Shown here one piece after another: positions 2,487 to 30,566 of a stretch of 41,274 bases of DNA. The stretch is taken from the NCBI GenBank assembly GCA_944385365.1, contig CALWWW010000021.1, positions 1-41,274 of the forward strand, given 5' to 3'. Source of the stretch: an uncultured Oscillospiraceae bacterium (GTDB lineage Bacteria > Bacillota > Clostridia > Oscillospirales > Oscillospiraceae). Below the pieces are notes generated by a model that saw only the letters and a program-made list of their open reading frames with translations, was not told the origin of the DNA and made no database searches. Both the position numbers and the translations under genes were made by a program. The stretch's first letter is position 1; each line of letters starts with the position of its first letter.

Positions 2487-2690
2487 AAAAGTTTTACTCG
2501 ATTTTTTCAAAAAATCGCGGTTTCCAAAGGCAGAGCCTTTGGTCGCCCGTCGCAACGGGCGAAATTCCCGCGCCGCGCACGGCGCGAAATCCCCAATCGT
2601 CCATAGCGCCATCCGCAGATGGCGCTATCCCCGGCCAAAGGCCATGGCCCCCGCCGCCGCCCCTGTGGGGTGGACGGCGGGGGCCATTTA
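2487..2690 (+). repeat. modular hairpin repeat, copy R1
   Basis: This is copy R1 of the modular family, in plus orientation, 59 nt after the cupin stop. Modules in order: AT inverted repeat (CGATTTTTT/CAAAAAATCG); hairpin CCAAAGGC-AGA-GCCTTTGG; hairpin GCCCGT-CGCA-ACGGGC then GAAAT; hairpin GCGCCG-CGCA-CGGCGC then GAAAT; hairpin GCGCCATC-CGCA-GATGGCGC; a GGCCAAAGGCC palindrome; and a terminal 13-bp stem (2644-2656 with 2675-2687). The last stem probably works as a terminator for uvrB-cupin. Apparent ORFs here are by-products of the repeat. Confidence 0.85.
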
Positions 2691-2711
2691 TTGACGATGG
2701 TGCGGCGTGGC

Positions 2712-2845
2712 ACATTCCGTCCGGGGCCGTCAAGGATGCCGGCCCCTACGTTGTTGTTGGTCGATGATGCATACCAGCGGCGGGACACGCAGGTCCCGCC
2801 CTACAAGATCAAACGGGTGTGCCTGCCGAACTTCTCATCACCGCC
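2712..2845. repeat. dispersed hairpin repeat, family 2, copy 1
   Basis: It contains inverted GC hairpins (GGGGCCGTC...GATGCCGGCCCC; GGCGGGAC-ACGCAG-GTCCCGCC) and a unique tail (AGATCAAACGGGTG... through CTTCTCATCACC). Positions 2722-2803 match the reverse complement of 34232-34322. The tail at 2780-2844 matches 34414-34480 in direct orientation. It is non-coding. Confidence 0.75.
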
Positions 2846-2850
2846 ATACT

Positions 2851-2898
2851 AAGAATCAGGGCGCGTTGCAAAACTAATTGCAGCGCGCCCTGATTCTT
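2851..2898. terminator. convergent hairpin between cupin and tadA
   Basis: A 15-bp stem (2851-2865 with 2884-2898, AAGAATCAGGGCGCG and its complement) is extended by TGCA/TGCA. It sits 4 nt past the tadA stop, between converging genes. It has no strong T-tract, so termination efficiency is uncertain. Confidence 0.6.
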
Positions 2899-2902
2899 TG
2901 GT

Positions 2903-3370
2903 TTATTCCGCTTTTTCCCGTTTCCTCCGTTCCCGCAGGTCCCGGAAAAAGGTCTTTAAAATCTCGGCGCACCGCTCCTGTTCCAGCCCTTTTTCCGTCC
3001 GGGGATGGTGGTTGAAGGACATGCAGAACAAATCGCAGACGCTGCCGCAGGCCCCGGCCTTGGGGTCCTCGGCTCCGTAGACCACCCGTGGAATCCGGGC
3101 GTTGAGAATGGCCCCAGCACACATGGGGCAGGGCTCCAGCGTCACATACAGGGTACACTGCCAAAGCCGCCAGCCCCCCAGGGTCCGGCATGCCTCGTCG
3201 ATGGCTTCCAGTTCCGCATGGGCCAGGGCGTGTTTGGCCGTCTCCCGGCGGTTGCGGCCCCGTCCCACAATCCGGTCCCCCTGGGCTATGACGCAGCCCA
3301 CCGGCACCTCGCCTTCGGCCGCCGCCTCGGCTGCAAGGGCCAGGGCTTCCTCCATCATTTTTTCATCCAC
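2903..3370 (-). CDS. tadA: tRNA-specific adenosine-34 deaminase
   Basis: TadA converts A34 to inosine in the anticodon of tRNA-Arg(ACG), which allows CGN wobble decoding. The zinc-deaminase signature is complete: H51-A-E53 (zinc ligand and proton-shuttle Glu) and P-C81-P-M-C84 (two zinc ligands), within the family pattern TLYVTLEPCPMCAG. The start is uncertain. I use GTG at 3370 (V-D-E-K-M-M-E-E-A-L), preceded by GGGGAAG and matching the usual N-terminus, giving 155 aa. In-frame ATGs at 3412 and 3424 would add 14-18 residues but have weaker ribosome sites. The gene lies just downstream of a dense DnaA-box cluster, so DnaA could affect its transcription. Confidence 0.93.
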   Translation of the reverse strand: MDEKMMEEALALAAEAAAEGEVPVGCVIAQGDRIVGRGRNRRETAKHALAHAELEAIDEACRTLGGWRLWQCTLYVTLEPCPMCAGAILNARIPRVVYGAEDPKAGACGSVCDLFCMSFNHHPRTEKGLEQERCAEILKTFFRDLRERRKREKAE

Positions 3371-3442
3371 AGTCCATTCTTCCCCTGTGGAATACTCCGG
3401 TTTTATGTTCATTCCTGCCCCCATTCTTTACTCACATTTGGT

Positions 3443-3602
3443 TGTGGATAACTATGTTAGCTCTGTGGATAACCGTGGATAATCTGTGGAAACGCCTTGT
3501 GGAACCACTAAATACCATGGTTTTCGACCATATGTTTGCGCACATCTTGGGGTTATCCACATATCCACAATTTTATCCACATCTGTCAACAACTGTGGAA
3601 AT
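3443..3602. promoter_or_regulatory. DnaA-box cluster upstream of tadA
   Basis: Perfect TTATCCACA boxes occur at 3443-3451 and 3464-3472 (minus orientation) and at 3553-3561 and 3573-3581 (plus orientation). One-mismatch boxes are at 3474-3482 and 3561-3569, and weaker TGTGGAAA sites near 3485 and 3594. The left boxes point one way and the right boxes the other, around a core of about 70 bp. This is the densest set of perfect boxes in the window, about 21 kb from dnaA. It could be an origin part, a DnaA titration site or a regulatory site for tadA. Confidence 0.75.
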
Positions 3603-4048
3603 CATTTCAACAGGCTCAGTTTATGGTCAACCTTTTGGAATACCCGTTCCAGCACCGCCACCTCCTGATCGCTCAGGTCCTCCGTGAGAAAATGAAAGAA
3701 TTCCTTCTGGGACTGCCGCAGCAAGCTCACCGGCAGGGAGGCCCGCTCCGTCAGATGGAGATACTGCACCCGCCGGTCCGCCGCCGACTGTGCCGTGGTC
3801 AGCAGCCCCTGCCGCACCAGACTTTCCACGGACCGGGAGACATACGTCTTGGAAAATCCCCGGTACTGGACCACATCCCTGGCGGTGTTGTACTGAGGAT
3901 TGTTGGCCAGAAACAGCAGCACATCGGCTTCCGGTTTGGCCAATCCCAACCGGTGGGCCGTCTCCTCAATGCGGCGGTTATAGGCCTGGATGCCCTGCTT
4001 CTGCATCCGCAAGAATTTTGTGATATGCTCCATGGCAATGACGGCCAT
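3602..4048 (-). CDS. MarR-family transcriptional regulator
   Basis: This is a 148-aa winged-helix protein. The HTH and wing are visible around residues 54-105 (ARDVVQYRGFSKTYVSRSVE as recognition region, then QSAADRRVQYLHLT as wing). MarR proteins bind palindromes as dimers and release DNA on binding a ligand. The start is ATG at 4048 with GGGAGGA 7 nt upstream. The gene is divergent from a MATE efflux pump, and two AGTTT-N6-AAACT palindromes fill the shared promoter region. The inferred role is ligand-responsive repression of itself and the pump. The ligand is unknown. Confidence 0.9.
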   Translation of the reverse strand: MAVIAMEHITKFLRMQKQGIQAYNRRIEETAHRLGLAKPEADVLLFLANNPQYNTARDVVQYRGFSKTYVSRSVESLVRQGLLTTAQSAADRRVQYLHLTERASLPVSLLRQSQKEFFHFLTEDLSDQEVAVLERVFQKVDHKLSLLK

Positions 4049-4080
4049 ATGCGTTCCTCCCAGATGGTTGATAGAATAAA

Positions 4081-4131
4081 ATAGTTTTCACGTAAACTAT
4101 GTTGACAAAAAATAGTTTTAGTGTAAACTAT
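4081..4131. promoter_or_regulatory. twin MarR-type operators in divergent promoter
   Basis: Two 20-bp palindromes of form ATAGTTT-N6-AAACTAT occupy 4081-4100 and 4112-4131. They are spaced 31 bp centre to centre, about three helical turns, so two dimers would bind the same face. A TTGACA at 4102-4107 lies between them and suits the rightward MATE promoter (-10-like TAAACT at 4124-4129). The opposite strand offers TTGTCA with TATTTT for marR. Binding should block both promoters. Confidence 0.8.
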
Positions 4132-4175
4132 ATTGTATCCATCAACGGGTTTCTTGTCAATGACCTGGGAAAGAA

Positions 4176-5585
4176 GTGTTACTCTTGCAACAGAAACAAA
4201 CGGAAGCCCTGGGCACCCAGCCCATTGGCAAGCTGCTTCTGCGGCTGGCGGCACCGGCTGTGGCGGCACAGATCATCAACCTGCTGTACAATCTGGTGGA
4301 CCGCATGTACATCGGTCACATCACCCCCACCGATACGGTGGGTCGGGTGGCCCTGACCGGCGTGGGCGTCTGTCTGCCCCTGATCATGATTATTTCGGCC
4401 TTTGCGGCCCTGGCGGGCCAGGGCGCCGCGCCCCGCGCTTCTATCTATCTGGGCAAAGGCGAGACGGCCAAGGCCGAAGAGGTCCTGGGCAACGCCACGT
4501 CGGCCCTGGTCTTTCTGTCCGTGGTGCTGACCGCCGTCTTTTACATCTTTGCCGAACCCATGCTGCTGGCCTTCGGCGCCAACGACGGCACCGGCAGCAC
4601 GGACAATACGCTGCTGTACGGCTTTGAATATCTGCGGCTGTACTCCCTGGGCACCCTCTTCGTCCTGGTGACGCTGGGCCTGAACACCTTTATCAGCGCC
4701 CAGGGCTTTACGGTCACCAGTATGCTGACGGTTCTCATCGGCGCGGTCTGCAACATCATTCTGGACCCCATTTTCATCTTCGGGCTGGATATGGGCGTGC
4801 GGGGCGCGGCCCTGGCCACCATTCTCTCCCAGGCCGTCAGCATGGTTTGGATTCTCAAATTCCTGACGGGCAAAAAGACCACCATCCGCATCCGTCTGCG
4901 GTACCTGAAGCCCAACTGGTCGGTGCTGCTGCCCAGTCTGGCCCTGGGCCTGTCGCCCTTTATCATGATGGCCACGGAAAGTCTCATTGCCGTCTGCTTC
5001 AACACGTCCCTCCGGAAATACGGCGGCGATCTGGCCGTGGGCGCCATGACCATTCTCTCCAGCGTCATGCAGTTTTCTATGCTGCCCCTGCAGGGTTTGA
5101 CCCAGGGTGCGCAGCCCATCATCAGCTACAACTACGGCGCGGGCAACGCCGACCGGGTCCGCCATGCCTTCCGGCTGCAAGTTGCCTGCACCACCACCTT
5201 TTCCGTGGTGCTCTGGCTGGCGGTCCAGTGTTTCCCGGACGTCTTTATCAAGATTTTCAACGATGCCCCGTCCCTGCTGGAAGTGGCCCGTCCGGCCCTG
5301 CGGATTTACACCGCCGCCGTCTGTCTGCTGGGCGTACAGATCGGCTGCCAGCAGACCTTCGTAGCCATCGGCAACGCCAAAAGCTCCCTGTTTCTGGCTC
5401 TGCTGCGGAAAGTGTTCCTGCTGATTCCCTTTATCTACATTCTGCCCCATGTTCTGCCGTTCCAGAAGACCACCTGCGTTTTCCTGGCGGAGCCTGTGGC
5501 CGACATTCTGGCCGTAGCCACCACCGTTACCCTGTTCTCCATCCAGTTCCGTCGGGCCATGAAGCGGCTGGAAAACCGTTCCTGA
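4176..5585 (+). CDS. MATE family multidrug efflux transporter
   Basis: This is a 12-helix MATE antiporter of 466-469 aa, expected to export drugs or metabolites in exchange for Na+ or H+. Family features: N-terminal LGTQPIGKLLLRLAAPA, VDRMYIGH, GQGAAPRASIYLGKG in the first half, and GLTQGAQPIISYNYGAGN in the second half, the pseudo-symmetric counterpart. There is no ATG start. GTG at 4176 and TTG at 4185 are both in frame after GGGAAAG (4168-4173); the TTG has the better spacing. The neighbouring divergent MarR gene and operators imply induction by the pump's substrate or a related compound. Confidence 0.93.
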   Translation: MLLLQQKQTEALGTQPIGKLLLRLAAPAVAAQIINLLYNLVDRMYIGHITPTDTVGRVALTGVGVCLPLIMIISAFAALAGQGAAPRASIYLGKGETAKAEEVLGNATSALVFLSVVLTAVFYIFAEPMLLAFGANDGTGSTDNTLLYGFEYLRLYSLGTLFVLVTLGLNTFISAQGFTVTSMLTVLIGAVCNIILDPIFIFGLDMGVRGAALATILSQAVSMVWILKFLTGKKTTIRIRLRYLKPNWSVLLPSLALGLSPFIMMATESLIAVCFNTSLRKYGGDLAVGAMTILSSVMQFSMLPLQGLTQGAQPIISYNYGAGNADRVRHAFRLQVACTTTFSVVLWLAVQCFPDVFIKIFNDAPSLLEVARPALRIYTAAVCLLGVQIGCQQTFVAIGNAKSSLFLALLRKVFLLIPFIYILPHVLPFQKTTCVFLAEPVADILAVATTVTLFSIQFRRAMKRLENRS

Positions 5586-5616
5586 TTCCCACCCGAAATC
5601 TTTACGGGTTACCGCA

Positions 5617-5645
5617 TTTACAAGCCAATGAAAATTTGGTATGAT
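5617..5645 (+). promoter_or_regulatory. promoter of EamA gene
   Basis: TTTACA (5617-5622), a 17-nt spacer and TATGAT (5640-5645) preceded by TGG (extended -10). It lies about 40 nt before the EamA start. Confidence 0.7.
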
Positions 5646-5685
5646 GTACTTTAATTGGTAAATGAAATGAGGGGGGAAGCCGGGG

Positions 5686-6570
5686 ATGCTGCAGCCAAGA
5701 ACCATGAATATTTTGGCCATGGTGCTGTTTGGAACGTTGTCTATTTTTGTCCGGGGCGTGGACCTGGGTTCCCTGGAGATCGCCTTCTGGCGGGGCCTGA
5801 TCGCCCTGGCGGTGCTGTCGCTGCTGCGGCTGGTGACGCCCCGCAGTGAAACGCCGCCGCTGTCGGGCCGTCAGAAGCTCGTTATGGTTCTGACCGGCAT
5901 GGCCGTGGGATTGAACTGGGCCCTGCTGTTTACGGCGTATAACTACACCAGCGTGGCCGTGGCTACCTTGGCGTATTACTTTGCGCCGGTGCTGGTTATG
6001 GCGTTAAGCCCCCTGCTGTTCCGGGAGCGGACCACTCCGTGGCAGTTTCTCTGCTTTTTAGCCGCCACAGCGGGTCTGGTACTGGTTATTTCCGGCGGGG
6101 CCACCCTGACGGCGGGCAATCTGGTGGGCGTGGGCTTCGGTTTGGGCGCCGCCTGTCTCTACGCCACGGTGGTTCTGATCAACAAGTTCTGTCCCGGCGG
6201 CACCGGTCTGGACCGGTCCATGTATCAAATGGCCGGTTCCTGTCTGCTGCTGGTGGTGCTGGTACCCCTGCGGGGCGGCTTCCATCTGCTGGAATGCGAT
6301 GTGACCTCCCTAGTCAATCTGCTGATTGTGGGCGTGGTCCACACGGGGTTGGCCTACTGGCTGTACTTCACCTCCATTCGGGACCTGCCCGGCACCCAGA
6401 CGGCCATCCTCAGCTATATCGATCCGGTGGTGGCCATTTTTGTCTCCACGCTGTTTTTCCGGGAAACCGTGGCCGTATCCCAATGGGTGGGCGCGGCGCT
6501 GATTCTCGGCTTTACGGGGCTGTATCAGGTTCTGTCCATCCGGCGGCCTGCTGCGGCCAAGGGCGGTTGA
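5686..6570 (+). CDS. EamA/DMT-family permease
   Basis: This 294-aa membrane protein is built of two EamA repeats of five helices each. The first runs from about residue 7 to 140, the second from about 150 to 285 (for example HTGLAYWLYFTSIRDLPGTQ, then ILSYIDPVVAIFVSTLFFRE, a typical EamA repeat ending). Members export amino acids or other small metabolites, or import nucleotide sugars; the substrate cannot be read from sequence. The start is ATG at 5686 after GAGGGGGGAAG. An internal ATG at 5704 is possible. The gene has its own promoter, and the promoter of the next gene overlaps its stop codon. Confidence 0.9.
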   Translation: MLQPRTMNILAMVLFGTLSIFVRGVDLGSLEIAFWRGLIALAVLSLLRLVTPRSETPPLSGRQKLVMVLTGMAVGLNWALLFTAYNYTSVAVATLAYYFAPVLVMALSPLLFRERTTPWQFLCFLAATAGLVLVISGGATLTAGNLVGVGFGLGAACLYATVVLINKFCPGGTGLDRSMYQMAGSCLLLVVLVPLRGGFHLLECDVTSLVNLLIVGVVHTGLAYWLYFTSIRDLPGTQTAILSYIDPVVAIFVSTLFFRETVAVSQWVGAALILGFTGLYQVLSIRRPAAAKGG

Positions 6571-6595
6571 CCCGGCAGGCCCTTCGTGGTATGAT
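6567..6595 (+). promoter_or_regulatory. promoter of BFD-like gene
   Basis: TTGACC (6567-6572), a 17-nt spacer and TATGAT (6590-6595) with a TGG extension. The -35 box overlaps the stop codon of the EamA gene. Confidence 0.7.
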
Positions 6596-6625
6596 GGGTC
6601 CATCTTGATACAGGAGGGATCGACC

Positions 6626-6823: not shown

Positions 6824-6829
6824 CCGTTC

Positions 6830-8646: not shown

Positions 8647-8650
8647 CCTC

Positions 8651-13299: not shown

Positions 13300-13482
13300 T
13301 GGTCTGCGCTGTCCACCCCTGAGGGGGCGGCAGCGTGGACCATGGCCTTTGGCCGGGCATTGCGCCATCTGCGGATGGCGCTTGGGGACGATGGGGGAAT
13401 TTCGCCCGCTGCGGCGGGCGACCGGGGCTTTGCCCCTGGACCCTACAATTTTTTTGTAAAAAAATTGAGTAAAAACTTTAAT
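13300..13482 (-). repeat. modular hairpin repeat, copy R2
   Basis: This is copy R2 of the modular family, in minus orientation, starting 19 nt after the hemW stop. Minus-strand order: AT inverted repeat (CAATTTTTTT/AAAAAAATTG), GGGGC-AAA-GCCCC, GCCCGC-CGCA-GCGGGC then GAAAT, GCGCCATC-CGCA-GATGGCGC, GGCCAAAGGCC, then a GTCCAC.../...GTGGAC terminal stem. The rest of the hemW-rpmH gap holds only the rpmH promoter and leader. Confidence 0.85.
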
Positions 13483-13500
13483 TTTTGGCCTTTTGCAACG

Positions 13501-14676
13501 TTATCGGCCCCGGCGGGTCAGCGGTTGGGAGCGCTCCTGGAGCTCCAGCAATCCGCCGATAATCCGGTTGGACAGCAGGAAGCCCTTGGGCGTCAAATGC
13601 CAGCAGCCCTCCTCGCAGACAGCCAGTCCCTTTTCCGCGTAGAACCGCATACCCTTTTCCAGAATGTCAAAGGGCAGCAGGAACCGGCTCTCGTACTCGT
13701 CGCCGTTGATGCCCTGGCTGGTCCGCAGCCGCAGCATCAGATATTCACCGGCCCGCTCCCGGGGCGCAATGGTCTCGCACTCCGACAGGACCACGCCGCC
13801 GCCGTGGACGCCTTTCAGGTACGTCTCCAGGCTGGCCGCCGCCGTAAACCGTTTTCCGGCAAAGTCCGACGAGGCCGAGGGGCCAAAGCCGATATATTCG
13901 CCGCCGGTCCAGTATTTCAGGTTGTGGCGGCAGGCCATGCCCTCCCGTGCAAAATTGGAGATTTCATATTGGGCATAGCCGAAATTCTCCAGGGTCTCCA
14001 CGGCGTAGAGATACATGTCGGCCTGGGTGTCGTCATCGGGCAGATTGGCACTTTCGTAGTACGTATACAGCGGCGTACCCGGCTCCACTTTCAGGCCGTA
14101 ACAGGACAGATGATCGGGCCGCAAATCCAGAACGGTCCGCAGGGTCTGCATCCACTTTTCTCTGGTCTGATTGGGCAAACCGTACATCAAATCGAGAGAA
14201 ATGTTCTCAAATCCAGCCTTTCTGGCGTTTTCCACCGCAAAAACAGCCTGCTCATAGGTGTGGGGACGGCCCAGCGCCTTCAAGACCTCGTCGGCCTCAT
14301 TCTGAACGCCCAGGCTCATGCGGTTGAATCCGGCGGAACGCAGCTTGTGCAGCGTCATGGCGTTGACCGATTCCGGGTTGGCCTCGAAGGTTACCTCACA
14401 GTCCCGGTCCATGTTGAACCGCTTACGAATTTCCGCCAGAATTCGTTTCAGGCCGTCGGCGCCGAAAAAGGAGGGCGTACCGCCGCCGAAATAGACCGAA
14501 TCCACCAGGTAGTCGGGGGCCAGGGCCGCCGTCTCCCGGATATGCAGAATCAGCGCATGGAGGTAGCGGTCCATCAGCTCCTTGCTGCGGCCGCCGCCCA
14601 GGGAATAAAAGTCGCAGTATTCACATTTGCTGCGGCAAAAGGGGATATGGACGTAAACGCCCAGTGTTTTTTCCAT
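13501..14676 (-). CDS. hemW: radical SAM heme chaperone HemW-like
   Basis: This is a 391-aa radical SAM protein of the HemN/HemW family. The cluster motif is C14-x3-C18-x2-C21 followed by D-F. It lacks the fourth Cys typical of true HemN coproporphyrinogen dehydrogenase, so HemW (heme transfer) is the better name. Other family motifs are GVYVHIPFC, VYFGGGTPSFFGADGL and NRMSLGVQNEADEVLKALGR, plus a C-terminal HemN domain (about 300-385). The start is ATG at 14676. It is the last gene of the dnaN-to-hemW run, 28 nt after a SHOCT membrane protein. Whether the organism uses heme cannot be told from this window. Confidence 0.92.
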   Translation of the reverse strand: MEKTLGVYVHIPFCRSKCEYCDFYSLGGGRSKELMDRYLHALILHIRETAALAPDYLVDSVYFGGGTPSFFGADGLKRILAEIRKRFNMDRDCEVTFEANPESVNAMTLHKLRSAGFNRMSLGVQNEADEVLKALGRPHTYEQAVFAVENARKAGFENISLDLMYGLPNQTREKWMQTLRTVLDLRPDHLSCYGLKVEPGTPLYTYYESANLPDDDTQADMYLYAVETLENFGYAQYEISNFAREGMACRHNLKYWTGGEYIGFGPSASSDFAGKRFTAAASLETYLKGVHGGGVVLSECETIAPRERAGEYLMLRLRTSQGINGDEYESRFLLPFDILEKGMRFYAEKGLAVCEEGCWHLTPKGFLLSNRIIGGLLELQERSQPLTRRGR

Positions 14677-22637: not shown

Positions 22638-22804
22638 TGTGGAAAACTGCCGCGAGCCCTGTCGTATCAACGGTTTTTTCTCCACAGGCCCCTGTGCATT
22701 CCACAGGAAGTTTTCACAATCCACTGTGGAGAAAATTTTTTCTTTCAAAAAACCGCAAATTTTCCACAAAAATTACCTAACATTCCACAAGCCGCTGTGG
22801 AAAA
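22638..22804. promoter_or_regulatory. degenerate DnaA-box region between dnaA and dnaN
   Basis: One-mismatch boxes of the TTTTCCACA type occur at 22638-22646, 22760-22768 and 22796-22804, with weaker TTCTCCACA and ATTCCACA sites between. There is no perfect box. This is the position of the unwinding region in B. subtilis. The remainder to 22969 shows no ORF, only an imperfect hairpin around 22888-22938. Confidence 0.55.
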
Positions 22805-22969
22805 CTTTTGGCGCGACAAAATCCACTGCGGTCGCCGACAAAAAACGCCATCACGCCCTTGTGATGCACAGACTTTTCGTCTACCTCCGCAGCAATGCGA
22901 AGCATGGATTCAGAGCGTTGCTGCATCGCTTCTGCGGCACCGCGCTATATAAAATCATGAACCAAATTC

Positions 22970-23082
22970 TAAAAGTTTTACTCGATTTTTTTCAAAAAAT
23001 CGCAGGGTCCAGGGGCAGCGCCCCGGTCGCGCCTCGCAAGGCGCGAAATACCCGCCCGCCGCAGCGGGCGAAATCCCCATAA
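22970..23082 (+). repeat. modular hairpin repeat, copy R3
   Basis: This is copy R3 of the modular family, in plus orientation, ending 9 nt from the dnaA stop and antisense to dnaA. Order: AT inverted repeat (CGATTTTTTT/CAAAAAATCG), GGGGC-AGC-GCCCC, GCGCCT-CGCA-AGGCGC then GAAAT, and GCCCGC-CGCA-GCGGGC then GAAAT. It is the shortest multi-hairpin copy and lies inside the dnaA-dnaN interval. Confidence 0.85.
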
Positions 23083-23091
23083 CCGCACCCA

Positions 23092-24402
23092 TTACAGCCG
23101 GTTATTGATGTTGGCGGTGATGTCGCGGATGGTTTCGGCCAGGACGCCGCCCTGATCCATGGCTTTTTCCACCTTGCGGATGGCATAAATGACGGTGGAG
23201 TGGTCCTTGCCGAATTCGCGGCCGATGTCGGGGAGGCTCAAATTGGTCAGCTGACGGATCAGATACATGGCAACCTGGCGGGCTTCGGCGGTGCCTTTGT
23301 TCTTGAGGGTACCCCGGAGGGTGCTCTCCGGAATGGAATAGAAGCGGCTGACCTCGGAAATGATGAGACTGGGGGTGGGAAGGGCTTCCGTTTTGCCCTT
23401 GTACATGTCCTTGATGGCACGGGAAACCGACGGCACATCAATATTCATGCCGTTGAGCTTCTGATAGGCCATAATCTTTTTCACGGTGCCTTCAATCTGC
23501 CGCACGTTGGAGGTGACATTCTCCGCAATATAGGCACAGACGTCGTCGGGCATATCCAATCCCAGGGACGTGGCCTTGTTTTTGATGATGGCCATACGGG
23601 TTTCGTAGTCGGGCGGGATAATATCGGCCTGGAGACCCCACTGGAATCGGGTTTTCAGCCGGTCCTCCAGCTTGAGCATCTCCTCGGGGGGACGGTCGGA
23701 GGTGAGGACAATCTGCTTTTTGGCCTCGTACAGGGTGTTGAAGGTATGGAAAAACTCCTCCTCCGTGGAGGCCTTGCCGGCAATAAACTGAATATCGTCC
23801 ATCAAAAACAGGTCGGCATTGCGGTATTTGCTGCGGAATTCGATATTCCGGCCTTCCTGGAGGGCGGCCACCAGTTCATTGGTGAATTGATCGCCCTTGA
23901 TGTACACAATATTATAGTTGGGGTGCTGCTTGTGGATTTCCGCTGCAATGGCGTAGAGCAGGTGAGTTTTGCCCAGGCCCGAGGGGCCGTAGATCAGAAG
24001 GGGGTTATACGCGCCGGCGGGATTGTTGGCCACGGCCACGGCCGCCGCGTGGGCAAACCGGTTGGACGAGCCGACCACGAACTTTTCAAAGGTAAACTCC
24101 GGGTTGAACTCCACAAACTTGGGCTTTTCCATGCGGCTTTTGTACTCTTCCACATTCTCTTCCAGCAGGACAACCACCTCGACCTCCTGGTTGTAGAGCT
24201 CCCGCATGGCATCCTGAATGTATTCCATGCAGCGCCGCTGGATCACATCCTGCTGATATTCGTAGGGTGTGGACAGAATCAGCTGATGGTCGGTGATCTC
24301 CACCACATTGGTATCGTCAAACCAGGCGGATGTGGCCGCAGCACCCATTTTATTTTCAATATGGCCAAGCACCTTGGCCCAAATAAACGCGGCAGAAGGC
24401 AT
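23092..24402 (-). CDS. dnaA: chromosomal replication initiator protein DnaA
   Basis: DnaA is the AAA+ initiator that binds DnaA boxes and unwinds oriC. It has four domains: N-terminal domain I (about 1-80), a short linker, AAA+ with Walker A G139-P-S-G-L-G-K-T146 and Walker B LFLMDDIQFI (about 205), and a C-terminal helix-turn-helix with GKDHSTVIYAIRKVE that reads TTATCCACA. The start is ATG at 24402 with AAAGGAGG; an in-frame ATG at 24435 has no ribosome site. The 436-aa length is normal. The promoter carries an adjacent perfect DnaA box, so self-control is likely. Confidence 0.98.
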   Translation of the reverse strand: MPSAAFIWAKVLGHIENKMGAAATSAWFDDTNVVEITDHQLILSTPYEYQQDVIQRRCMEYIQDAMRELYNQEVEVVVLLEENVEEYKSRMEKPKFVEFNPEFTFEKFVVGSSNRFAHAAAVAVANNPAGAYNPLLIYGPSGLGKTHLLYAIAAEIHKQHPNYNIVYIKGDQFTNELVAALQEGRNIEFRSKYRNADLFLMDDIQFIAGKASTEEEFFHTFNTLYEAKKQIVLTSDRPPEEMLKLEDRLKTRFQWGLQADIIPPDYETRMAIIKNKATSLGLDMPDDVCAYIAENVTSNVRQIEGTVKKIMAYQKLNGMNIDVPSVSRAIKDMYKGKTEALPTPSLIISEVSRFYSIPESTLRGTLKNKGTAEARQVAMYLIRQLTNLSLPDIGREFGKDHSTVIYAIRKVEKAMDQGGVLAETIRDITANINNRL

Positions 24403-24609: not shown

Positions 24610-25344
24610 ATGCTGGAAATCAAAAATCTCTCGGTGACTGTCAACGACGAAAACGGCAGAGCCGACATTTTAAAAGACATCAATCTGACGGTGGAGGACC
24701 GGAAATTCATCGTCATCACCGGCCCCAACGGCGGCGGCAAAACCACCCTGGCCCGGGCCATTATGGGTCTGGCTCCCGTTACCGGCGGCTCCATCCTCTG
24801 GAACGGCACGGAATTGGCCGACAAATCCGTGACGGAGCGGGCAAAACTGGGCGTTTCCTACGGATTTCAGCAGCCGCCCCGGTTCAAGGGCATGAAGGTG
24901 GCCGATCTTCTGTCCATTGCCGCCGGCCGGAAGCTGAACCACGACGAAACCTGCTCCTATCTGACGAAAGTGGGATTGTGCGCCCGGGACTATTTGGACC
25001 GGGATGTGGACGCCAGCTTGTCCGGCGGCGAGGTCAAGCGCATTGAAATCGCCACGATTCTGGCCAGGAAATGCCCCCTGATGATCTTCGATGAGCCGGA
25101 GGCCGGTATCGATCTCTGGTCCTTTGCCCGTCTGACGGAGACCTTTTCCGAAATCCACGCCAAAAAAGAGGCCACCATCCTCATCATCTCCCACCAGGAG
25201 CGGATCATCCGTCTGGCCGACGAAATCATTCTGGTGGCCGACGGCCATGTAAAGGACCGGGGCCCCGCCGAAAAAATCTATCCCCAAATTCTCGCAGACA
25301 CCGTTTCGGGCTGCAACCGGCTGGAGGTAAACGGAACATGCTGA
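24610..25344 (+). CDS. sufC: Fe-S assembly ATPase SufC
   Basis: SufC is the ABC-type ATPase of the SUF iron-sulfur scaffold. Walker A is GPNGGGKTTLA (about 37-47), the signature SLSGGEVKRIEIATIL (about 138-153), Walker B PLMIFDEPEAGIDLWS, and the switch His ISHQER. The DEPEAGID form fits the SufC branch rather than importers. The length is 244 aa. The start is ATG at 24610. The sufB/D-like partner overlaps the end by seven nt. No sufS, sufU or sufE is in the window. Confidence 0.93.
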   Translation: MLEIKNLSVTVNDENGRADILKDINLTVEDRKFIVITGPNGGGKTTLARAIMGLAPVTGGSILWNGTELADKSVTERAKLGVSYGFQQPPRFKGMKVADLLSIAAGRKLNHDETCSYLTKVGLCARDYLDRDVDASLSGGEVKRIEIATILARKCPLMIFDEPEAGIDLWSFARLTETFSEIHAKKEATILIISHQERIIRLADEIILVADGHVKDRGPAEKIYPQILADTVSGCNRLEVNGTC

Positions 25345-26261
25345 ACGACGTACAAAAGCACATTCTGGAAGTGGTCGCCGCCATGAAAAACGGCGAGACC
25401 GACGGCGCGGTGAACATCCGCATCGACGGCAAAAAGGCCCATCGGGTCAACTCCGAGCACATCCGGATTGAATCCAAAACCGACAAGGACGGCATTGACA
25501 TTCACATTGCCCCCTTTACCAAGCATGAAAGCGTCCATATTCCCGTGGTGCTGACGGAGAGCGGCTTCCATGACAAGGTTTACAACGACTTTTATATTGG
25601 AGAGGGCGCGGAGGTCAACATTGTGGCCGGATGCGGTATCCACAACTGTGGCTGCGACGACTCCCAGCACGACGGCGTCCACACCTTTTATGTGGGAAAA
25701 AACGCAAAAGTCACCTATTCCGAGACCCACTACGGCGAAGGTGAAGGCGGCGGCAAGCGGATTCTGAACCCGGAAACCATCCTCTATCTGGAGGAAGGCG
25801 CTTCCGTCACCCTGGACACCACCCAGATCAAGGGTGTGGACGATACCAAGCGGTACACCAAGGCCGTTTTGGGCAAGGACGCGGAAATTGTCATCACCGA
25901 AAAGCTGCTGACCCATGACAACCAGTACGCCGAAAGCGAAATGGACGTGTTTTTGAACGGCGAAGGCTCCAAAACCCGTGTGATTTCCCGGTCTGTGGCC
26001 CAGGATAACTCCGTTCAGGTGTTTTATCCGCGGGTGGAGGGCAATGCGCCCTGTTTTGGACACGTCAGCTGCGACGCCATCATTATGGGCGAAGCCAAGG
26101 TCAAGGCCATTCCCGCCATTTCCTGTAACCATGTGGACGCGGGGCTGATTCATGAAGCGGCCATCGGCAAAATTGCCGGCGACCAGCTGTTGAAGCTCAT
26201 GACGTTGGGCCTGACGGCGGAGGAAGCCGAAGAGAAGATTCTCGAGGGCTTTTTGCGGTAA
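25338..26261 (+). CDS. SufB/SufD family Fe-S scaffold protein
   Basis: This 307-aa protein matches the beta-helix core and C-terminal helical part of SufB/SufD. Motifs: HVSCDAIIMGEAKVKAIPAI and the family ending HVDAGLIHEAAIGKIAGDQL, followed by L-T-A-E-E-A-E-E-K-I-L. It is much shorter than SufB (about 465 aa) or SufD (about 420 aa) because the N-terminal domain is absent. As sole partner of SufC it resembles the minimal two-gene SUF type, where one SufB/D protein would form a homodimer on two SufC. A possible cluster-binding motif is CGIHNCGCDD (about residue 98). The start is ATG at 25338 after CTGGAGG, overlapping sufC. Confidence 0.88.
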   Translation: MLNDVQKHILEVVAAMKNGETDGAVNIRIDGKKAHRVNSEHIRIESKTDKDGIDIHIAPFTKHESVHIPVVLTESGFHDKVYNDFYIGEGAEVNIVAGCGIHNCGCDDSQHDGVHTFYVGKNAKVTYSETHYGEGEGGGKRILNPETILYLEEGASVTLDTTQIKGVDDTKRYTKAVLGKDAEIVITEKLLTHDNQYAESEMDVFLNGEGSKTRVISRSVAQDNSVQVFYPRVEGNAPCFGHVSCDAIIMGEAKVKAIPAISCNHVDAGLIHEAAIGKIAGDQLLKLMTLGLTAEEAEEKILEGFLR

Positions 26262-26270
26262 ATCAAGGGA

Positions 26271-26475
26271 TTTTTTGGGGGCTCTGCCCCCAAACCCCCG
26301 CGATTTTTTGAAAAAAATCGAGTAAAACTTTTTATAACGCCATACCCGTTCCGGGCATGGCGTGGATTTGTATTGAGAATAAACAAAAAATAAAAGTTTT
26401 TACTCAATTTTTTTACAAAAAAATTGCGGTTTCCAAAGGCAGCGCCTTTGGTCGCCCGCCGCAGCGGGCGAAATC
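26271..26475. repeat. modular hairpin repeats, inverted pair R4
   Basis: Two copies face each other. The left copy (26271-26332) is in minus orientation, with TGGGGGC-AGA-GCCCCCA and the AT inverted repeat. The right copy (26391-26475) is plus, with AT inverted repeat, CCAAAGGC-AGC-GCCTTTGG and GCCCGC-CGCA-GCGGGC then GAAAT. Between them is a hairpin CGCCATACCCG/CGGGCATGGCG (26339-26363). The whole sits between sufB and rlmH and can fold into one large cruciform. Confidence 0.85.
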
Positions 26476-26493
26476 CATGGACAGGAGGGCCTT

Positions 26494-26976
26494 ATGCTCC
26501 ATGTAACAATCCTCACCGTGGGAAAATTGAAAGAAAAATTCTATCTGGAAGCCTGTAAGGAGTATGCCAAGCGGTTGTCGGCCTATTGCAAGCTGGACCT
26601 GCTGGAGCTGCCGGAATACCGGCTGCCGGATAACCCCTCGAATGCGGAAATCACGGCGGGACTGGAGCGGGAAGCGGAACAGATTTTTGCCAAAATTCCC
26701 AAAGGGGCCTGGGTTTGCGTTCTGACGCCGGAGGGCAAGCTCCTGTCGTCGGAACAGCTGGCCGATCAGCTGAAAGCCGTCAAATCGGCGGGAAAATCCT
26801 CCATCTGTTTGATTTTGGGCAGCTCGTTCGGCATGGCCCCCGCGGTCAAGCAGCGGGCCGACTTCCGGCTGTCCATGTCTCCCATGACGTTTCCCCACCA
26901 CCTGGCGCGGATTATGGTCCTGGAACAGCTGTATCGGGCCGAATCCATCCAGGCCGGCAGCCGGTACCACAAGTGA
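26494..26976 (+). CDS. rlmH: 23S rRNA pseudouridine-1915 methyltransferase RlmH
   Basis: RlmH, a SPOUT-class enzyme, N3-methylates pseudouridine 1915 of 23S rRNA in assembled ribosomes. It has the trefoil-knot motif region LILGSSFGMAPAVKQRADFR and the family end MTFPHHLARIMVLEQLYRAE, finishing in YHK. The length of 160 aa is normal. The start is ATG at 26494 with GGACAGGAGGGCC upstream. It is commonly found near oriC in Firmicutes, as here. Confidence 0.95.
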   Translation: MLHVTILTVGKLKEKFYLEACKEYAKRLSAYCKLDLLELPEYRLPDNPSNAEITAGLEREAEQIFAKIPKGAWVCVLTPEGKLLSSEQLADQLKAVKSAGKSSICLILGSSFGMAPAVKQRADFRLSMSPMTFPHHLARIMVLEQLYRAESIQAGSRYHK

Positions 26977-26987
26977 AACAAGGACAT

Positions 26988-27178: not shown

Positions 27179-27190
27179 TTTGCCCCGGTT
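27145..27190 (-). terminator. ung terminator-like hairpin containing DnaA boxes
   Basis: CGGGGCAAAT-T-ATCCACA pairs with TGTGGAT-G-ATTTGCCCCG around the loop AATGAC, about 17 of 18 bp. It starts directly after the ung stop. Two DnaA-box sequences form the upper stem. No T-tract is seen. Confidence 0.6.
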
Positions 27191-27192
27191 GT

Positions 27193-27867
27193 TTATTGGG
27201 AGAAGTCGATGGGCTGTTGATGGTTGGCTAACAGGAAGTCGTTGAGTTTGGAATAAACGTGGCTGCCGAAGAAGCCCCGATAGGCGGAAAGGGGACTGGG
27301 ATGGGGAGATTCCAGAATGCAGCGCACGTAGGGGGATGCGGCAATGGCTTTGCGCTTTTTCTGGGCTTGACTGCCCCAGAGGACAAAGGCTATGGGCTGG
27401 GGAAATGTGGCCAGCGTCGCCACTACCGCGTCGGTGAAGGTCTGCCATCCAAAATTTTTATGGCTGTTGGCCCGGTCCTTTTCCACGGTCAGCACGGTAT
27501 TCAGCAGCAGCACGCCCTGCTTGGCCCAGCCGGTGAGATCGCCGTGAGACGGCGGGGGACAGTGGAGATCGCTGTCCAGCTCCTGAAACATATTGCGAAG
27601 AGACGGCGGAATTTTCACGCCCTCCCGGACGGAAAAGGCCAGACCGTTGGCTTCACCCGCTCCATGGTAGGGGTCCTGTCCCAGAATCACCACCCGCACC
27701 TGGTCCGGCGGTGTCAGGGAAAAGGCGCGGAATACCTCGTTTTCCGGCGGGTAAACGGTGACGGTGGAGCGGGCCTCGTCCACGCGGCGGGTCAATTCCG
27801 CAAAATAGGGCTTTTGCAGCTCCCGTTCCAGCAGCGGCAGCCACGGGCCCAAAGGCGAAAGGTCCAT
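27193..27867 (-). CDS. ung: uracil-DNA glycosylase (family 1)
   Basis: Ung removes uracil from DNA to start base excision repair. Motif A is G63-Q-D65-P-Y-H68, with D65 as the catalytic base, followed by the uracil-binding pattern GEANGLAFSV. The leucine-loop motif is H189-P-S-P-L-S, then AYRGFFGS. The length of 224 aa is normal. The start is ATG at 27867, eight nt after GAGGAGG; a TTG six nt upstream is too close to that site. It is the only minus-strand gene between dnaA and the transporter at 34.5 kb, so it runs against the inferred replication direction. Confidence 0.96.
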   Translation of the reverse strand: MDLSPLGPWLPLLERELQKPYFAELTRRVDEARSTVTVYPPENEVFRAFSLTPPDQVRVVILGQDPYHGAGEANGLAFSVREGVKIPPSLRNMFQELDSDLHCPPPSHGDLTGWAKQGVLLLNTVLTVEKDRANSHKNFGWQTFTDAVVATLATFPQPIAFVLWGSQAQKKRKAIAASPYVRCILESPHPSPLSAYRGFFGSHVYSKLNDFLLANHQQPIDFSQ

Positions 27868-27908
27868 ATACAATACCTCCTCAACGGAATTTCTGTAGGA
27901 TTTTGTCT

Positions 27909-27937
27909 ATCATACCGGAAGAACGGCACCTTGTAAA
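27909..27937 (-). promoter_or_regulatory. ung promoter
   Basis: On the minus strand TTTACA (27932-27937) and TATGAT (27909-27914) with a 17-nt spacer. Confidence 0.75.
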
Positions 27938-27980
27938 CCGGCTTCTCATAGGATGAAAAAAACCATGGGAGGAGATTGCC

Positions 27981-29252
27981 ATGCAGCTGCATACGGTACG
28001 GGCCGGGGAGACTTTGACGGCCATCGGCGGGGAATACGGGGTGTCGCCGGGGTTGATTGCGCGGGTCAACGGGTTGGAACCGCCCTTTGCTCTGGCTGTG
28101 GGACAGAGCCTATTGATTTTGAAGCCCCGCGTTTTACATACGGTCCGTTCGGGGGAAACCCTCTACAGTGTGGCCCAGCAATATGATACGGACCCATTGC
28201 AGCTGCTGCGGAACAATCCCAATCTGGAGGGCCGCGCCGCATTGTTTCCCGGCCAGGTGCTAGTGATCGATTGGGAGGATACGCCGGATACAAAACTGGA
28301 GATCAACGGCTACGCCGAACCGGATGTGCAGGAAGCGGTGCTGCGGACCATTCTGCCCTACAGCACCTTTCTGGCCCCTTTTACCTATGGGGTGTCGAAA
28401 ACCGGGGGATTGGTGCCGTTAAACGACGAAACCCTCCTGCGGTGGGCGGACCAATACGGCGTGACGCCGTGGCTCCATCTGTCCACGCTGACCGAGGACG
28501 GCACCTTTTCCAATGAGCGGGCTGCCGTGGCGCTGGCCACCGCCGAAAGCCGGGCGTCTCTGGCCGATGCGGCCATCGGTACGGCGCTGGAAAAGGGATA
28601 CGGCGGCATTGACGTGGATTTTGAATTTATTTTCCCGGAACAGGCCGAGGCCTACGCCGATTTTGTGGCATTGCTGCGGCGGCGGGCCAATGGGCTGGGG
28701 CTGGAAGTGGTGGTGGCCCTGGCTCCCAAGACGTCAGCGGACCAGGCAGGGGTTCTCTATCAGGGCCATAATTACCGGTTACTGGGGGAGGCCGCCAACG
28801 CGGTGTTATTGATGACCTATGAGTGGGGCTATACCTATGGCCCGCCCATGGCAGTGGCCCCCATCGACGCCGTGAAACGGGTGCTGGATTACGCCATAAC
28901 GGAGATCCCGCCGGAAAAAATCTTTATGGGCTTTCCCAATTACGCCTATGACTGGACGCTGCCCTTCATCACCGGAGAGAGCCGGGCCACCAGCATTTCC
29001 AATCCGGAGGCCGTGGCCCTGGCGGTCCGCATGGGGGCGGAAATCCAATTTGACGAGAAGGCCCAGACGCCGTATTTCCACTATACCGATGACCGGGGCA
29101 TGGTCCATGAGGTCTGGTTTGAGGACCCCCGCAGCTGTCTGGCCAAATTTGATCTGGCAGCGTCCTACGGCTTTCGGGGATTGGGAGTTTGGAATTATAT
29201 GCGGCCGTTTCCCGCGTGTTTTTCCCTGCTGAATGTGCGGTTTTTGCTGTGA
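27981..29252 (+). CDS. LysM and glycoside hydrolase 18 protein, SleL/YaaH-like
   Basis: This 423-aa protein has two N-terminal LysM repeats (about 3-47 and 52-96; HTVRAGETL and HTVRSGETL starts) and a GH18 barrel (about 105-415). The catalytic segment is YGGIDVDFEF with D211, D213 and general acid E215; the first Asp of the usual DxxDxDxE is not present. This is the layout of SleL/YaaH, spore N-acetylglucosaminidases that cut cortex fragments during germination. No signal peptide is seen, which fits coat-assembled spore enzymes. The start is ATG at 27981 after GGGAGGAGA. Holin- and amidase-like genes follow. Confidence 0.88.
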   Translation: MQLHTVRAGETLTAIGGEYGVSPGLIARVNGLEPPFALAVGQSLLILKPRVLHTVRSGETLYSVAQQYDTDPLQLLRNNPNLEGRAALFPGQVLVIDWEDTPDTKLEINGYAEPDVQEAVLRTILPYSTFLAPFTYGVSKTGGLVPLNDETLLRWADQYGVTPWLHLSTLTEDGTFSNERAAVALATAESRASLADAAIGTALEKGYGGIDVDFEFIFPEQAEAYADFVALLRRRANGLGLEVVVALAPKTSADQAGVLYQGHNYRLLGEAANAVLLMTYEWGYTYGPPMAVAPIDAVKRVLDYAITEIPPEKIFMGFPNYAYDWTLPFITGESRATSISNPEAVALAVRMGAEIQFDEKAQTPYFHYTDDRGMVHEVWFEDPRSCLAKFDLAASYGFRGLGVWNYMRPFPACFSLLNVRFLL

Positions 29253-29331
29253 CAGGTCACAACGGAACGCCTTTTGTCATAGACTGGACGGCGGCAAAAG
29301 TGCCGCCAGGTTGTGAAAGGAGGCATTGCCT

Positions 29332-29547
29332 GTGAATAACAAACAAAGGTTATGGATTCACAATACCTGTATTCGGGCCATCCAGTCCATGGCCCAGACG
29401 GCCCTGGCAACCATGGGCACCATGGCCACGTTTTTCAATGTCAGCTGGAAAGGCGTTATCTCCGCCACGCTGATGGCCGGGGTTTTGTCGATTCTGGGCA
29501 GCATTGCCAAGCTGCGGCCCATCAATGAACCGGAACAGGGGGCGTAA
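29332..29547 (+). CDS. phage-type holin-like membrane protein
   Basis: This 71-aa protein starts at GTG 29332, eight nt after AAAGGAGG; a TTG at 29326 is too close. A basic N-terminus (NNKQRLWIHNTCIRAIQS) precedes two hydrophobic segments (about 18-35 and 40-58, including SATLMAGVLSILGSIAKL) and a short tail. The A-Q-T-A-L-A-T-x-G pattern and length resemble r1t-type phage holins. It ends two nt before an amidase gene, the usual holin-endolysin order. It could be a remnant phage lysis unit or a transporter for a cell-wall hydrolase. Confidence 0.7.
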   Translation: MNNKQRLWIHNTCIRAIQSMAQTALATMGTMATFFNVSWKGVISATLMAGVLSILGSIAKLRPINEPEQGA

Positions 29548-29549
29548 CC

Positions 29550-30311
29550 ATGAAACTGCTGCTGATTGCCGGCCATGGGGCCGGAGACCCGGGGGCCGTG
29601 TCCGGCGTGTTTCAGGAGGCCGTGGAGACCCGGCGGGTGGTGGGCGCTCTGGTGCGGCTGCTGAAAGGGTACTGTGATGTCACCCAGTACCCGCCTACCC
29701 GCAACGCGTTCAGCGACTTCCGCACGGGACAGCTGAACAAACAGGTCCAACTGTCGGACTTCGACTATGTGTTGGAGATTCACTTCAACGCTTCGGCCCC
29801 CGGACCGAAGGACGGCAAAACCAAGGGCGTGGAGATTTTTGTTCCCACCGGCGCGACGGAGACGGCGGCGGAGGAACAGATTTGTCGGGCCGTTGCCGCT
29901 GGCGGGCTCACCAACCGGGGCCTGAAACGGTACAACTGGGCCGTCATCAACGCCGCCCACCGGGCCGGGGTCCGGTCGGCGCTGCTGGAGGTCTGCTTTA
30001 TCGACGATCCCGACGATATGCTGGTCTATACGACCAAATTTGACGCGGTGGCCCAGGCTATTGCCGATGCCATCATTACCCAATTTTCTCTCGAAAAGGA
30101 GGAGAAGCCTGTGACCTATGAGGAATTCGCGGCCTTTATGGACCGTTATCTGACCAACCGGGCCAAGCTGGCCCCGTCTGCCTGGTCCAACGAGGCCAGA
30201 GCCTGGGCCGAAAAGGCCAATATTGTCCAGGGCGGCAGCGACGGAGAGAAAAAGTACCAATCGTTTGTCACCAGGGAAGAGCTGGTACAGATGCTGTTTC
30301 GGTCCAAATAG
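29550..30311 (+). CDS. N-acetylmuramoyl-L-alanine amidase (Amidase_3, endolysin-like)
   Basis: This 253-aa zinc amidase cleaves the bond between MurNAc and the stem peptide. Zinc ligands are suggested by IAGHGAGDPGAV (first His, about residue 8), the region EIHFNA (second His) and the catalytic Glu in SALLEVCFIDDPDD. The C-terminal 65 residues (TYEEFAAFMDRYLTNRAKLA onward to FVTREELVQMLFRS) look like an SLH-like or cell-wall-binding tail seen in phage endolysins. There is no signal peptide, so release would need a holin. The start is ATG at 29550 directly after the holin-like gene. Confidence 0.87.
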   Translation: MKLLLIAGHGAGDPGAVSGVFQEAVETRRVVGALVRLLKGYCDVTQYPPTRNAFSDFRTGQLNKQVQLSDFDYVLEIHFNASAPGPKDGKTKGVEIFVPTGATETAAEEQICRAVAAGGLTNRGLKRYNWAVINAAHRAGVRSALLEVCFIDDPDDMLVYTTKFDAVAQAIADAIITQFSLEKEEKPVTYEEFAAFMDRYLTNRAKLAPSAWSNEARAWAEKANIVQGGSDGEKKYQSFVTREELVQMLFRSK

Positions 30312-30333
30312 GAGCACGGAACACCGGAGAATC

Positions 30334-30566
30334 AAAAGTTTTACTCGATTTTTTTCAAAAAATCGCAGGGGTCCAGGGGGCAGCGCCCCCGGTCGCCCGC
30401 CGCAGCGGGCGAAATATCCGCGCCGCGCACGGCGCGAAACACCCGCCCGCCGCAGCGGGCGAAATCCCCGAATCGTTCTAAAGCGCCATCCGCAGATGGC
30501 GCAATCCCCACGGCGTCAGCCGTAAGGCCGCCGTACCCACCCCATCGGGTGGGACGGCGGCCTTTT
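30334..30566 (+). repeat. modular hairpin repeat, copy R5, ending in terminator
   Basis: This is copy R5 of the modular family and the longest, in plus orientation, starting 22 nt after the amidase stop. Order: AT inverted repeat; GGGGGC-AGC-GCCCCC; GCCCGC-CGCA-GCGGGC, GAAAT; GCGCCG-CGCA-CGGCGC, GAAAC; GCCCGC-CGCA-GCGGGC, GAAAT; GCGCCATC-CGCA-GATGGCGC; a GGCGTCAGCC element; and a terminal stem AAGGCCGCCGT / ACGGCGGCCTT with inner ACCCACC/GGGTGGG, followed by TTTT. The last part is a convincing terminator. Confidence 0.88.

Follow-up and report, generated by a model that had tools for sequence, protein, structure and literature searches.

Background

High-copy repeats that lie behind bacterial genes are commonly written off as debris or classed as repetitive extragenic palindromic sequences (REPs) kept by RAYT transposases. 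The element treated here, a modular intergenic repeat of hairpins with a constant CGCA loop, lies in a 41,274-nt stretch of DNA from an uncultured Oscillospiraceae bacterium (contig CALWWW010000021.1 of assembly GCA_944385365.1; hereafter the window), and BOX and REP are the nearest known systems by layout and position. BOX is likewise composite (boxA-(boxB)n-boxC), and its variable middle unit folds for the most part independently; it is over-represented between convergent genes and has been proposed to affect co-transcribed mRNA, including at 3' ends (PMC3049150). REPs tagged with GTAG or CGTC and bacterial interspersed mosaic elements (BIMEs) are also short high-copy palindromes with complementary stem variation, and many REPs are found some 20 bp or less from the 3' end of a gene, at times providing the stop codon (PMC3733652). 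The SPRITEs of pneumococcus share the enrichment at 3' ends of convergent genes but consist of a single 18-bp duplex with a U-rich tract and are terminator-like (PMC3049150). In human microbiomes, 250 palindromic candidate RNAs have been reported, 20 of which were not predicted terminators (PMC8040213). Miniature inverted-repeat transposable elements (MITEs) resemble the CGCA repeat in being small, intergenic, highly paired, and gained and lost.

An arm of the CGCA repeat begins with an AT-rich leader inverted repeat, followed by a tri-loop hairpin (H) and then by one or more B modules of 25 nt each, in which a stem with a CGCA loop is followed by a GAAAY tail and a spacer; beyond B, arms 1, 2 and 6 of the window have another CGCA hairpin (C) and then a long, GC-rich one (D). 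The arms of the window's own genome thus have an A-(B)n-C layout of the BOX type, with n varying from 0 to 5. Their middle units nevertheless use six stem words with one loop and exclude identical neighbours, whereas boxB is one near-uniform sequence. The terminal inverted repeats of BOX pair with each other (PMC3049150), whereas a CGCA arm has its leader at one end only. With REPs the family has in common that it consists of high-copy intergenic palindromes near gene 3' ends, but no GTAG or CGTC tag lies next to B, which begins TCG or CCG and has the tail GAAAY or GGAAY. By eye, CGTC occurs a few bases ahead of hairpin C in many arms. The CGCA family also differs from REPs in its fixed succession of several hairpins, head to tail, and in showing no dependence on RAYT. 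It may also differ from MITEs: a comparison by eye of a few sites, some filled and some unfilled, showed no terminal inverted repeat or target duplication.

A search of Rfam 15 with the window and 20 loci gave tRNA only above the gathering cut-off, and relaxed limits gave sub-threshold matches only. Literature searches, which left most subscription papers outside their reach, returned no description of a CGCA hairpin family. We therefore found no named family that matches the repeat, in agreement with a preliminary description made from the window's sequence alone. Our preferred reading, held tentatively and with a confidence that stops a little short of even, is that of a REP/BOX-like modular repeat of one Clostridia order that acts as a transcribed 3'-end hairpin chain.

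Copy number, position and orientation

The window's own genome (G000; 2.58 Mb in 64 contigs) falls in the genus of Candidatus Avoscillospira avistercoris, which NCBI places in the Oscillospiraceae, Clostridia. Allowing up to 3 mismatches, the leader 31-mer has 110 copies in it (61 on the plus and 49 on the minus strand), and a control pattern has none. We parsed 60 stretches around part of 100 listed leader matches, together with the window, against genes called with a self-trained gene caller, and obtained 87 arms: 70 full arms (with C), 13 short arms and four that consist of leader and H only.

The preliminary description had not remarked that the full arms lie in sense past stop codons. Where a confident gene end was found within 150 nt, 59 full arms were in sense and 4 antisense; the median distance from stop codon to sense full arm was 18 nt, and in some cases the stop overlaps the start of the leader. 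With all classes pooled the counts were 63 and 5 (two-sided P = 8e-14), and 73 of the 84 arms with an upstream gene follow that gene in sense. Short arms differ, several of them adjoining the stop of a convergent gene or preceding a gene start, and because of this behaviour we restrict the claim of orientation to full arms. Since full copies lie mostly in sense just past stop codons, most of them are probably transcribed as the 3' ends of mRNAs. As a separate observation, a further upstream repeat (GGGGCTGAGGGGCC...CCGCAACAATGCGAAGCATGGATTGAG...CACCGCACCAAATC, in some cases only parts of it) is common to the short arms L066, L090, L097-L099, L105, L106 and L109, with which it may form a larger composite element.

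Location past stop codons, together with the T-run that ends some terminal hairpins, would also suit ordinary intrinsic terminators in repeated form. We regard this as quite improbable, because the hallmark of such terminators, a GC hairpin followed immediately by a U-run, was found at only 12 of 94 terminal hairpins, and T after D is about as frequent as A before it. A pattern scan restricted to loops of 3-8 found no terminator-like site in arm 6. The idea that arms take the place of terminators was also set aside: terminator-like sites were found at 0 of 9 gene ends with an arm and 6 of 62 without one, few cases seen with a scan of low sensitivity.

Among the 100 listed leader matches, 16 of 17 close pairs are convergent, from which the idea of a composite element arose. 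A transposon with terminal inverted repeats was rejected on this point: in 12 of the 16 convergent pairs each arm lies in sense behind its own gene, and solo arms, which have no leader copy at their far end, are abundant.

Stem pairing and covariation

All stems named in the preliminary description are present and perfectly paired. For 51 leader-H-B1 segments, selected for variety among 74 distinct parsed ones, 97.9% of cells were paired (shuffled 89.5), and the covariation score of 0.230 compared with 0.079 in shuffled and at most 0.086 in slid alignments, these two being the controls throughout. One of five measures failed against the shuffles in this set (further pair types, 466/500). A second alignment (A2) joined 18 clear B hairpins, found among 22 loci of 22 genomes by a search that gave CGCA a bonus, with one from the window, and thus spans 19 genomes of 13 genera. 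Here 99.3% of cells were paired (shuffled 74.0) and the score reached 0.728 (shuffled 0.190, slid no more than 0.130), with 18 distinct stems among the 19; two of the five measures failed against shuffles (both-sided change, 171/500; further pair types, 74/500). Covariation thus persisted with more copies. The loop was CGCA in 17 of the 19, so that the constancy of the loop, noted before within the window, extends across the 13 genera.

The earlier proposal that compensatory change reflects selection on structure stands in part. Paired changes across genera, as in A2, are consistent with it and are more independent evidence than stem differences within the genus, which appear, by comparison of the sequences, to be largely swaps, losses or gains of whole modules that were paired beforehand.

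Covariation might also arise by mutation and without function. In quasipalindrome correction, a hairpin on the replicating strand templates the correction of one of its arms from the other, and two observations are in keeping with such an origin: none of 288 stem pairs is mismatched in a genome of another family (G404, where at least 6 of 8 pairs were required of an element), and stem mismatches carry no strand signature. Such correction would not keep the loop, however, and CGCA persists where stems have changed; nor would it yield the position bias or the second CGCA hairpin that in G404 lies about 80 nt further on. We therefore give this origin little credence.

A signature of the RNA strand was sought in the balance of G-U and A-C mismatches and was rejected. 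There were 12 of the G-U and 13 of the A-C type in 3090 pairs from 515 modules. To be counted, a module needed a GAAAY tail, a loop that differs from CGCA by no more than one base, and 4 or more of its 6 pairs, so that the 504 CGCA loops among them are conditioned by the selection. Between genomes (A2) the 3 U-G and 0 A-C cells are too few to judge such a signature.

Exclusion of identical neighbours

In the own genome, 83 arms carry 204 B modules (0 to 5 per arm, as the variable number of modules described earlier would have it), spaced by 25 nt with few exceptions, and six stem words, GCCCGC, GCGCCG, GCTGGC, GCCCGT, GCGCCT and GCCCCG, account for almost all of them. Neighbouring stems are never identical, a second feature that had gone unremarked: there was no identical pair among 121 neighbours, where 20,000 shuffles gave a mean of 25.0 and a minimum of 10. 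Larger sets from three species, in which C hairpins were counted as one-module arrays and the first of which overlaps the 121 pairs, gave 0 of 147, 0 of 72 and 0 of 84 (23.5, 10.0 and 11.2 expected), or 0 of 303 together with about 45 expected, counts that are not independent events because the species share ancestry and copies exchange modules. The rule is strict for immediate neighbours only. The same word two apart (ABA) was found in 1 of 64 cases in G000 (10.1 expected), 4 of 31 in G001 (4.4 expected) and 12 of 37 in G006 (4.9 expected), and ABABAB arrays are present in G006.

When all ordered pairs of the six words were folded as two-module RNAs, 6 of 6 identical (AA) pairs were predicted to merge into one long hairpin, which was 5.6-7.2 kcal/mol better than separate hairpins and in which both loops were lost; with DNA parameters AA was merely 0-0.4 kcal/mol better. 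The only unlike pairs also predicted to misfold, four near-identical ordered ones, were seen 10 times among 291 pairs, where 32.2 were expected. Since near-identical words are also the likeliest to recombine, their depletion does not separate a cause in RNA from one in DNA. Among arrays of at least two modules built only from the six words, the minimum free energy (MFE) structure of the RNA kept all hairpins separate in 55 of 79, 27 of 40 and 32 of 42 in the three species (shuffled means 32.8, 16.1 and 20.1), that is, in 114 of 161 against shuffled means totalling 69.

Misfolding of RNA as the sole cause of the rule is rejected in its simple form: ABA also merges energetically and yet is tolerated in two species, so equilibrium misfolding alone is insufficient. 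Either local rearrangement at the time of transcription or instability at the DNA level of a 41-nt quasi-palindrome would fit. Loss of tandem units by slippage is not favoured because ABABAB arrays exist, and collapse of AA during assembly is an unlikely artefact because longer tandem arrays were assembled. Two further regularities were seen in the arrays: the word GCTGGC tends to stand inside an array (in the own genome, inner in 28 cases, first in 3 and last in 6), and the order GCCCCG-GCGCCG was seen 0 times where 8.2 were expected, for which folding gives no explanation.

The repeat could alternatively be a DNA-level element, in which some nucleoid protein, gyrase-like protein or recombination protein binds the cruciforms or palindromes and the neighbour rule reflects the loss of long quasi-palindromes. 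A rule that is specific to adjacency while ABA is tolerated in two species fits the instability of palindromes with short centres, and mismatches without strand asymmetry, the occurrence of both orientations beside genes and inversion breakpoints at or beside two inverted arms (see below) point the same way. The 59:4 excess of sense among full arms and the small gain of AA by DNA parameters argue against such an element, and we consider it improbable.

Distribution and the suggested transposase link

Relatives were searched with a covariance model (R1) built on leader-H-B1, with cut-offs of E 1e-3 for the family, 1e-4 for the order and 1e-5 for the phylum, and with strict filters by which weak matches are lost. 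R1 matched 24 of 300 genomes of the family (13 of 106 genera) and 37 of 295 of the order, own genome included (26 of 149 genera in eight families); in the phylum sample it matched 4 of 398, all four of them within the same order, as judged by relatedness to the genome from which the window comes. Rescoring of ten order genomes, picked because they had matches, gave counts of 68, 88, 132, 32, 87, 41, 11, at least 150, 57 and 60.

Arrays have a narrower distribution. A scan of named GTDB genomes with a pattern that demanded two neighbouring modules, and in which single-module genomes could not show, listed at least 56 stretches. Those listed all lie within the genus, in Candidatus Avoscillospira avistercoris and in one uncultured Oscillospiraceae bin. 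In G404, 36 elements with 14 stem types were found; the loop was CGCA in 35 of the 36 (five loops were allowed), a second CGCA hairpin followed in 19, and 27 of 34 with a near confident gene lay in sense behind it (27 of 36 overall). From 20 stretches of G424 the parser recovered only 11 elements and missed others; 7 of 7 with a near confident gene, and 7 of 10 overall, lay in sense behind it. No multi-B array was found among the 36 elements of G404 or the 11 parsed elements of G424. At single loci of other genomes, 15 of 21 were in sense behind a gene, with no limit on distance.

A link to RAYT had been suggested. The own genome has two RAYT-like genes (L032 and L033, at G000:C32:18391-18837 and C11:41296-41568), whose best model, REP_Tyr_transpos, scored 73.5 and 61.1 bits, below the cut-off of 80. 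One of the two lies about 1.3 kb from an arm pair, and by eye no hairpins of the CGCA family were seen directly at the ends of either. Elsewhere in the same genome, at C54, there is one Y1 transposase with an in-frame TAG. At E 0.001, no Y1 transposase was found in 10 of 14 element-rich genomes of the order (at least 97% complete). RAYT or Y1 as a required partner was accordingly rejected, and the earlier suggestion fails; given these 10 genomes, such an enzyme seems unnecessary for keeping the repeat family.

More generally, the repeat might be a non-autonomous, selfish element like BOX or REP, moved by some enzyme that needs the hairpins and settling at 3' ends as the place of least harm. 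The high copy number, the 62 of 71 examined gene ends that have no arm, and the gain and loss of arms between close genomes described in the next section speak for this. The lack of a Y1 transposase in 10 of the 14 element-rich genomes, a RAYT frequency no higher in family genomes with R1 (10 of 24) than overall (132 of 300), the failure of arm 6 to match anything in phage or plasmid collections, the lack of visible terminal repeats or target duplications at the few sites compared by eye and the strong sense orientation of full arms all speak against it, and we judge a mobile element rather unlikely.

Evolution of the arms within the genus

The repeat family is dynamic. Of 12 ortholog arm pairs listed, with flanks 90-96% identical, nine differ in H, B words or module number and three have the same words, and the leader changes little. 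In L085 and L136, for example, the flank is 95.9% identical, and H and every B word differ in order and kind. The orthologs of arm 6 have one module fewer in G001 and are a decayed remnant in G006; those of arm 3 in G001 and G006 have a different H and a single module. By eye, counterparts are missing for arm 3 in G002-G005 and for arm 5 in G002, G004 and G005, and G003 has another gene at the site of arm 5.

Over about 90 kb of synteny between G000 and G006, arms have been gained or lost, one is reversed and one leader is interrupted by another repeat. These genomes are about 92-96% identical, yet the arm at C5 73942 of G000 is replaced in G006 by a short terminator-like hairpin, and that at C5 110467 of G006 is missing from G000. 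An inversion of about 15 kb (G000:C5:7300-23450 versus G006:C5:41770-57180; L234-L244) has its breakpoints at or next to two arms of opposite orientation, as though these had recombined, so that arms may drive rearrangement. In two different arms (L027, and L242 at G006:C5 near 64760-64960), another repeat of about 150-200 bp has been inserted and separates the T-run of the leader hairpin from its A-run, as if this hairpin were a preferred target. In arm 5, H and B are unchanged in three species while the spacer before them varies; this constancy contrasts with the fast-changing 3' arms, and arm 5 could perhaps have a role in a 5' untranslated region (UTR).

Weighing a proposed transcribed 3'-end hairpin chain

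According to our preferred reading, the core of the repeat would be the AT-rich leader hairpin, H and B (CGCA loop, tail GAAAY or GGAAY), often with the second CGCA hairpin C downstream. Full copies, probably transcribed as mRNA 3' ends to judge by their position, would fold into a chain of hairpins that shields or shapes those ends, as proposed for REP and BOX hairpins, and a shared factor may recognise the constant loop and tail. The B unit appears to have been multiplied into its 25-nt arrays in Avoscillospira, and the whole-module differences between species suggest recombination or conversion among copies. Identical neighbours would be excluded, most simply, because equal palindromes in adjacent positions would fold together as a single long hairpin at the expense of their loops, a cost (computed here for RNA) that might be paid by RNA or by DNA. 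Because of the sense position and the RNA energetics, we consider action as RNA more likely than action as DNA. A more specific version, in which an order-wide 3'-end RNA element of any stem, a CGCA loop and a GAAAY or GGAAY tail, with copies numbering up to 150 or more in a genome, is read by a dedicated RNA-binding or RNA-processing factor and the Avoscillospira array grammar keeps the loops exposed, is possible but doubtful.

Several observations weigh against a transcribed hairpin chain. Stem mismatches lack a strand signature, a U-run is rare after D, and several short arms are antisense to a gene end or lie in a 5' UTR. ABA merges by RNA energy as strongly as AA (mean 6.3 kcal/mol) and is depleted in G000, at expectation in G001 and in excess in G006. 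Arm 6, although its RNA fold is strong (z = -7.0), is itself ABA, and its MFE structure merges those stems. A preference for 3' ends is also found in REPs and BOX, which are regarded as mobile or parasitic (PMC3049150, PMC3733652).

One fixed-loop structure thus persists across an order of Clostridia, mostly without a Y1 transposase in the element-rich genomes tested, and from its position it should belong to the mRNA. Should it indeed be transcribed, it would matter for many 3' ends in a little-studied group and would amount to a natural library in which many stems present one loop behind many genes. The exclusion of identical neighbours, a sharp and quantitative signal, indicates that either folding or the stability of palindromes is constrained in vivo, and the RNA and DNA readings can be separated by experiment.

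The arms in the window

Six arms at five intergenic sites were found where the preliminary description had placed them (Table 1). The single order that it ascribed to all six holds for five; arm 4 consists of leader and H only and lacks a CGCA hairpin. The leader takes three forms, AAAAGTTTTACTCGATTTTTTTCAAAAAATCGC, a version shorter by one T, and a paired variant ending in CAATTTTTTTACAAAAAAATTG, and the loops of H are AGA, AGC or AAA. Twelve CGCA-loop hairpins of at least 6 bp occur in the window on both strands, every one of them inside an arm and shared by five arms. On the plus strand, 39 tetraloop hairpins have a perfect stem of 6 bp or longer; CGCA is the loop in 10 of these and ranks first, the runner-up having 2, so that the pattern exceeds what chance would give.

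Table 1. Arms of the CGCA repeat and their parts, in window positions
Feature	Position	Strand	Remark
Arm 1, AT-rich leader inverted repeat	2487..2523	+	begins ~60 nt past stop of cupin gene (2086-2427 +)
Arm 1, H	2524..2542	+	CCAAAGGC-AGA-GCCTTTGG
Arm 1, B1	2543..2562	+	TCGCCCGT-CGCA-ACGGGCGA + AAT
Arm 1, B2	2569..2586	+	CGCGCCG-CGCA-CGGCGCG + AAAT
Arm 1, C	2603..2628	+	ATAGCGCCATC-CGCA-GATGGCGCTAT
Arm 1, small hairpin and long GC-rich D	2633..2687	+	without U-run
Arm 2, full	13300..13486	-	leader from 13486 down; ~15 nt past stop of HemN-type radical SAM gene (13501-14676 -)
Arm 2, H	13424..13436	-	AAA loop
Arm 2, B	13402..13421	-	
Arm 2, C	13362..13381	-	
Arm 2, D	~13300..13354	-	
Arm 3, short (leader, H, B1, B2)	22971..23078	+	end ~14 nt from dnaA stop (23092-24402 -), antisense to dnaA
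Arm 3, H	23012..23024	+	AGC loop
Arm 3, B1	23027..23046	+	GCGCCT
Arm 3, B2	23053..23070	+	GCCCGC
Arm 4, leader and H	26274..26335	-	TTTGGGGGC-AGA-GCCCCCAAA; behind, antisense to, SufBD-type gene (25338-26261 +)
Arm 5, short (leader variant, H, B)	26393..26474	+	19 nt upstream of RlmH-type gene start (26494-26976 +)
Arm 5, H	26433..26451	+	
Arm 5, B	26452..26471	+	
Arm 6, leader and spacer	30334..30375	+	~22 nt past stop of amidase gene (29550-30311 +)
Arm 6, H	30376..30390	+	GGGGGC-AGC-GCCCCC
Arm 6, modules B1 to B3	30393..30461	+	
Arm 6, B1	30393..30412	+	GCCCGC
Arm 6, B2	30419..30436	+	GCGCCG
Arm 6, B3	30444..30461	+	GCCCGC
Arm 6, C	30483..30502	+	GCGCCATC-CGCA-GATGGCGC
Arm 6, small hairpin and terminal GC-rich D	30510..30566	+	TTTT at end

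Pfam identified DnaN, DnaA, an RlmH-type methyltransferase, a YidC-type protein and others in the window, and all ten genes checked matched on the called strand. Arm 3 has dnaA on one side and, on the other, clustered boxes that resemble TTTTCCACA, by eye a probable oriC (window 22690-23092). Other dispersed repeats (GGCGGGACACGCAGGTCCCGCCCTACGA... and GTAGGGGCCGGCATCCTTGACGGCCCC...) occur in many intergenic regions, in the window at 2708-2872, 34195-34330 and 34416-34509.

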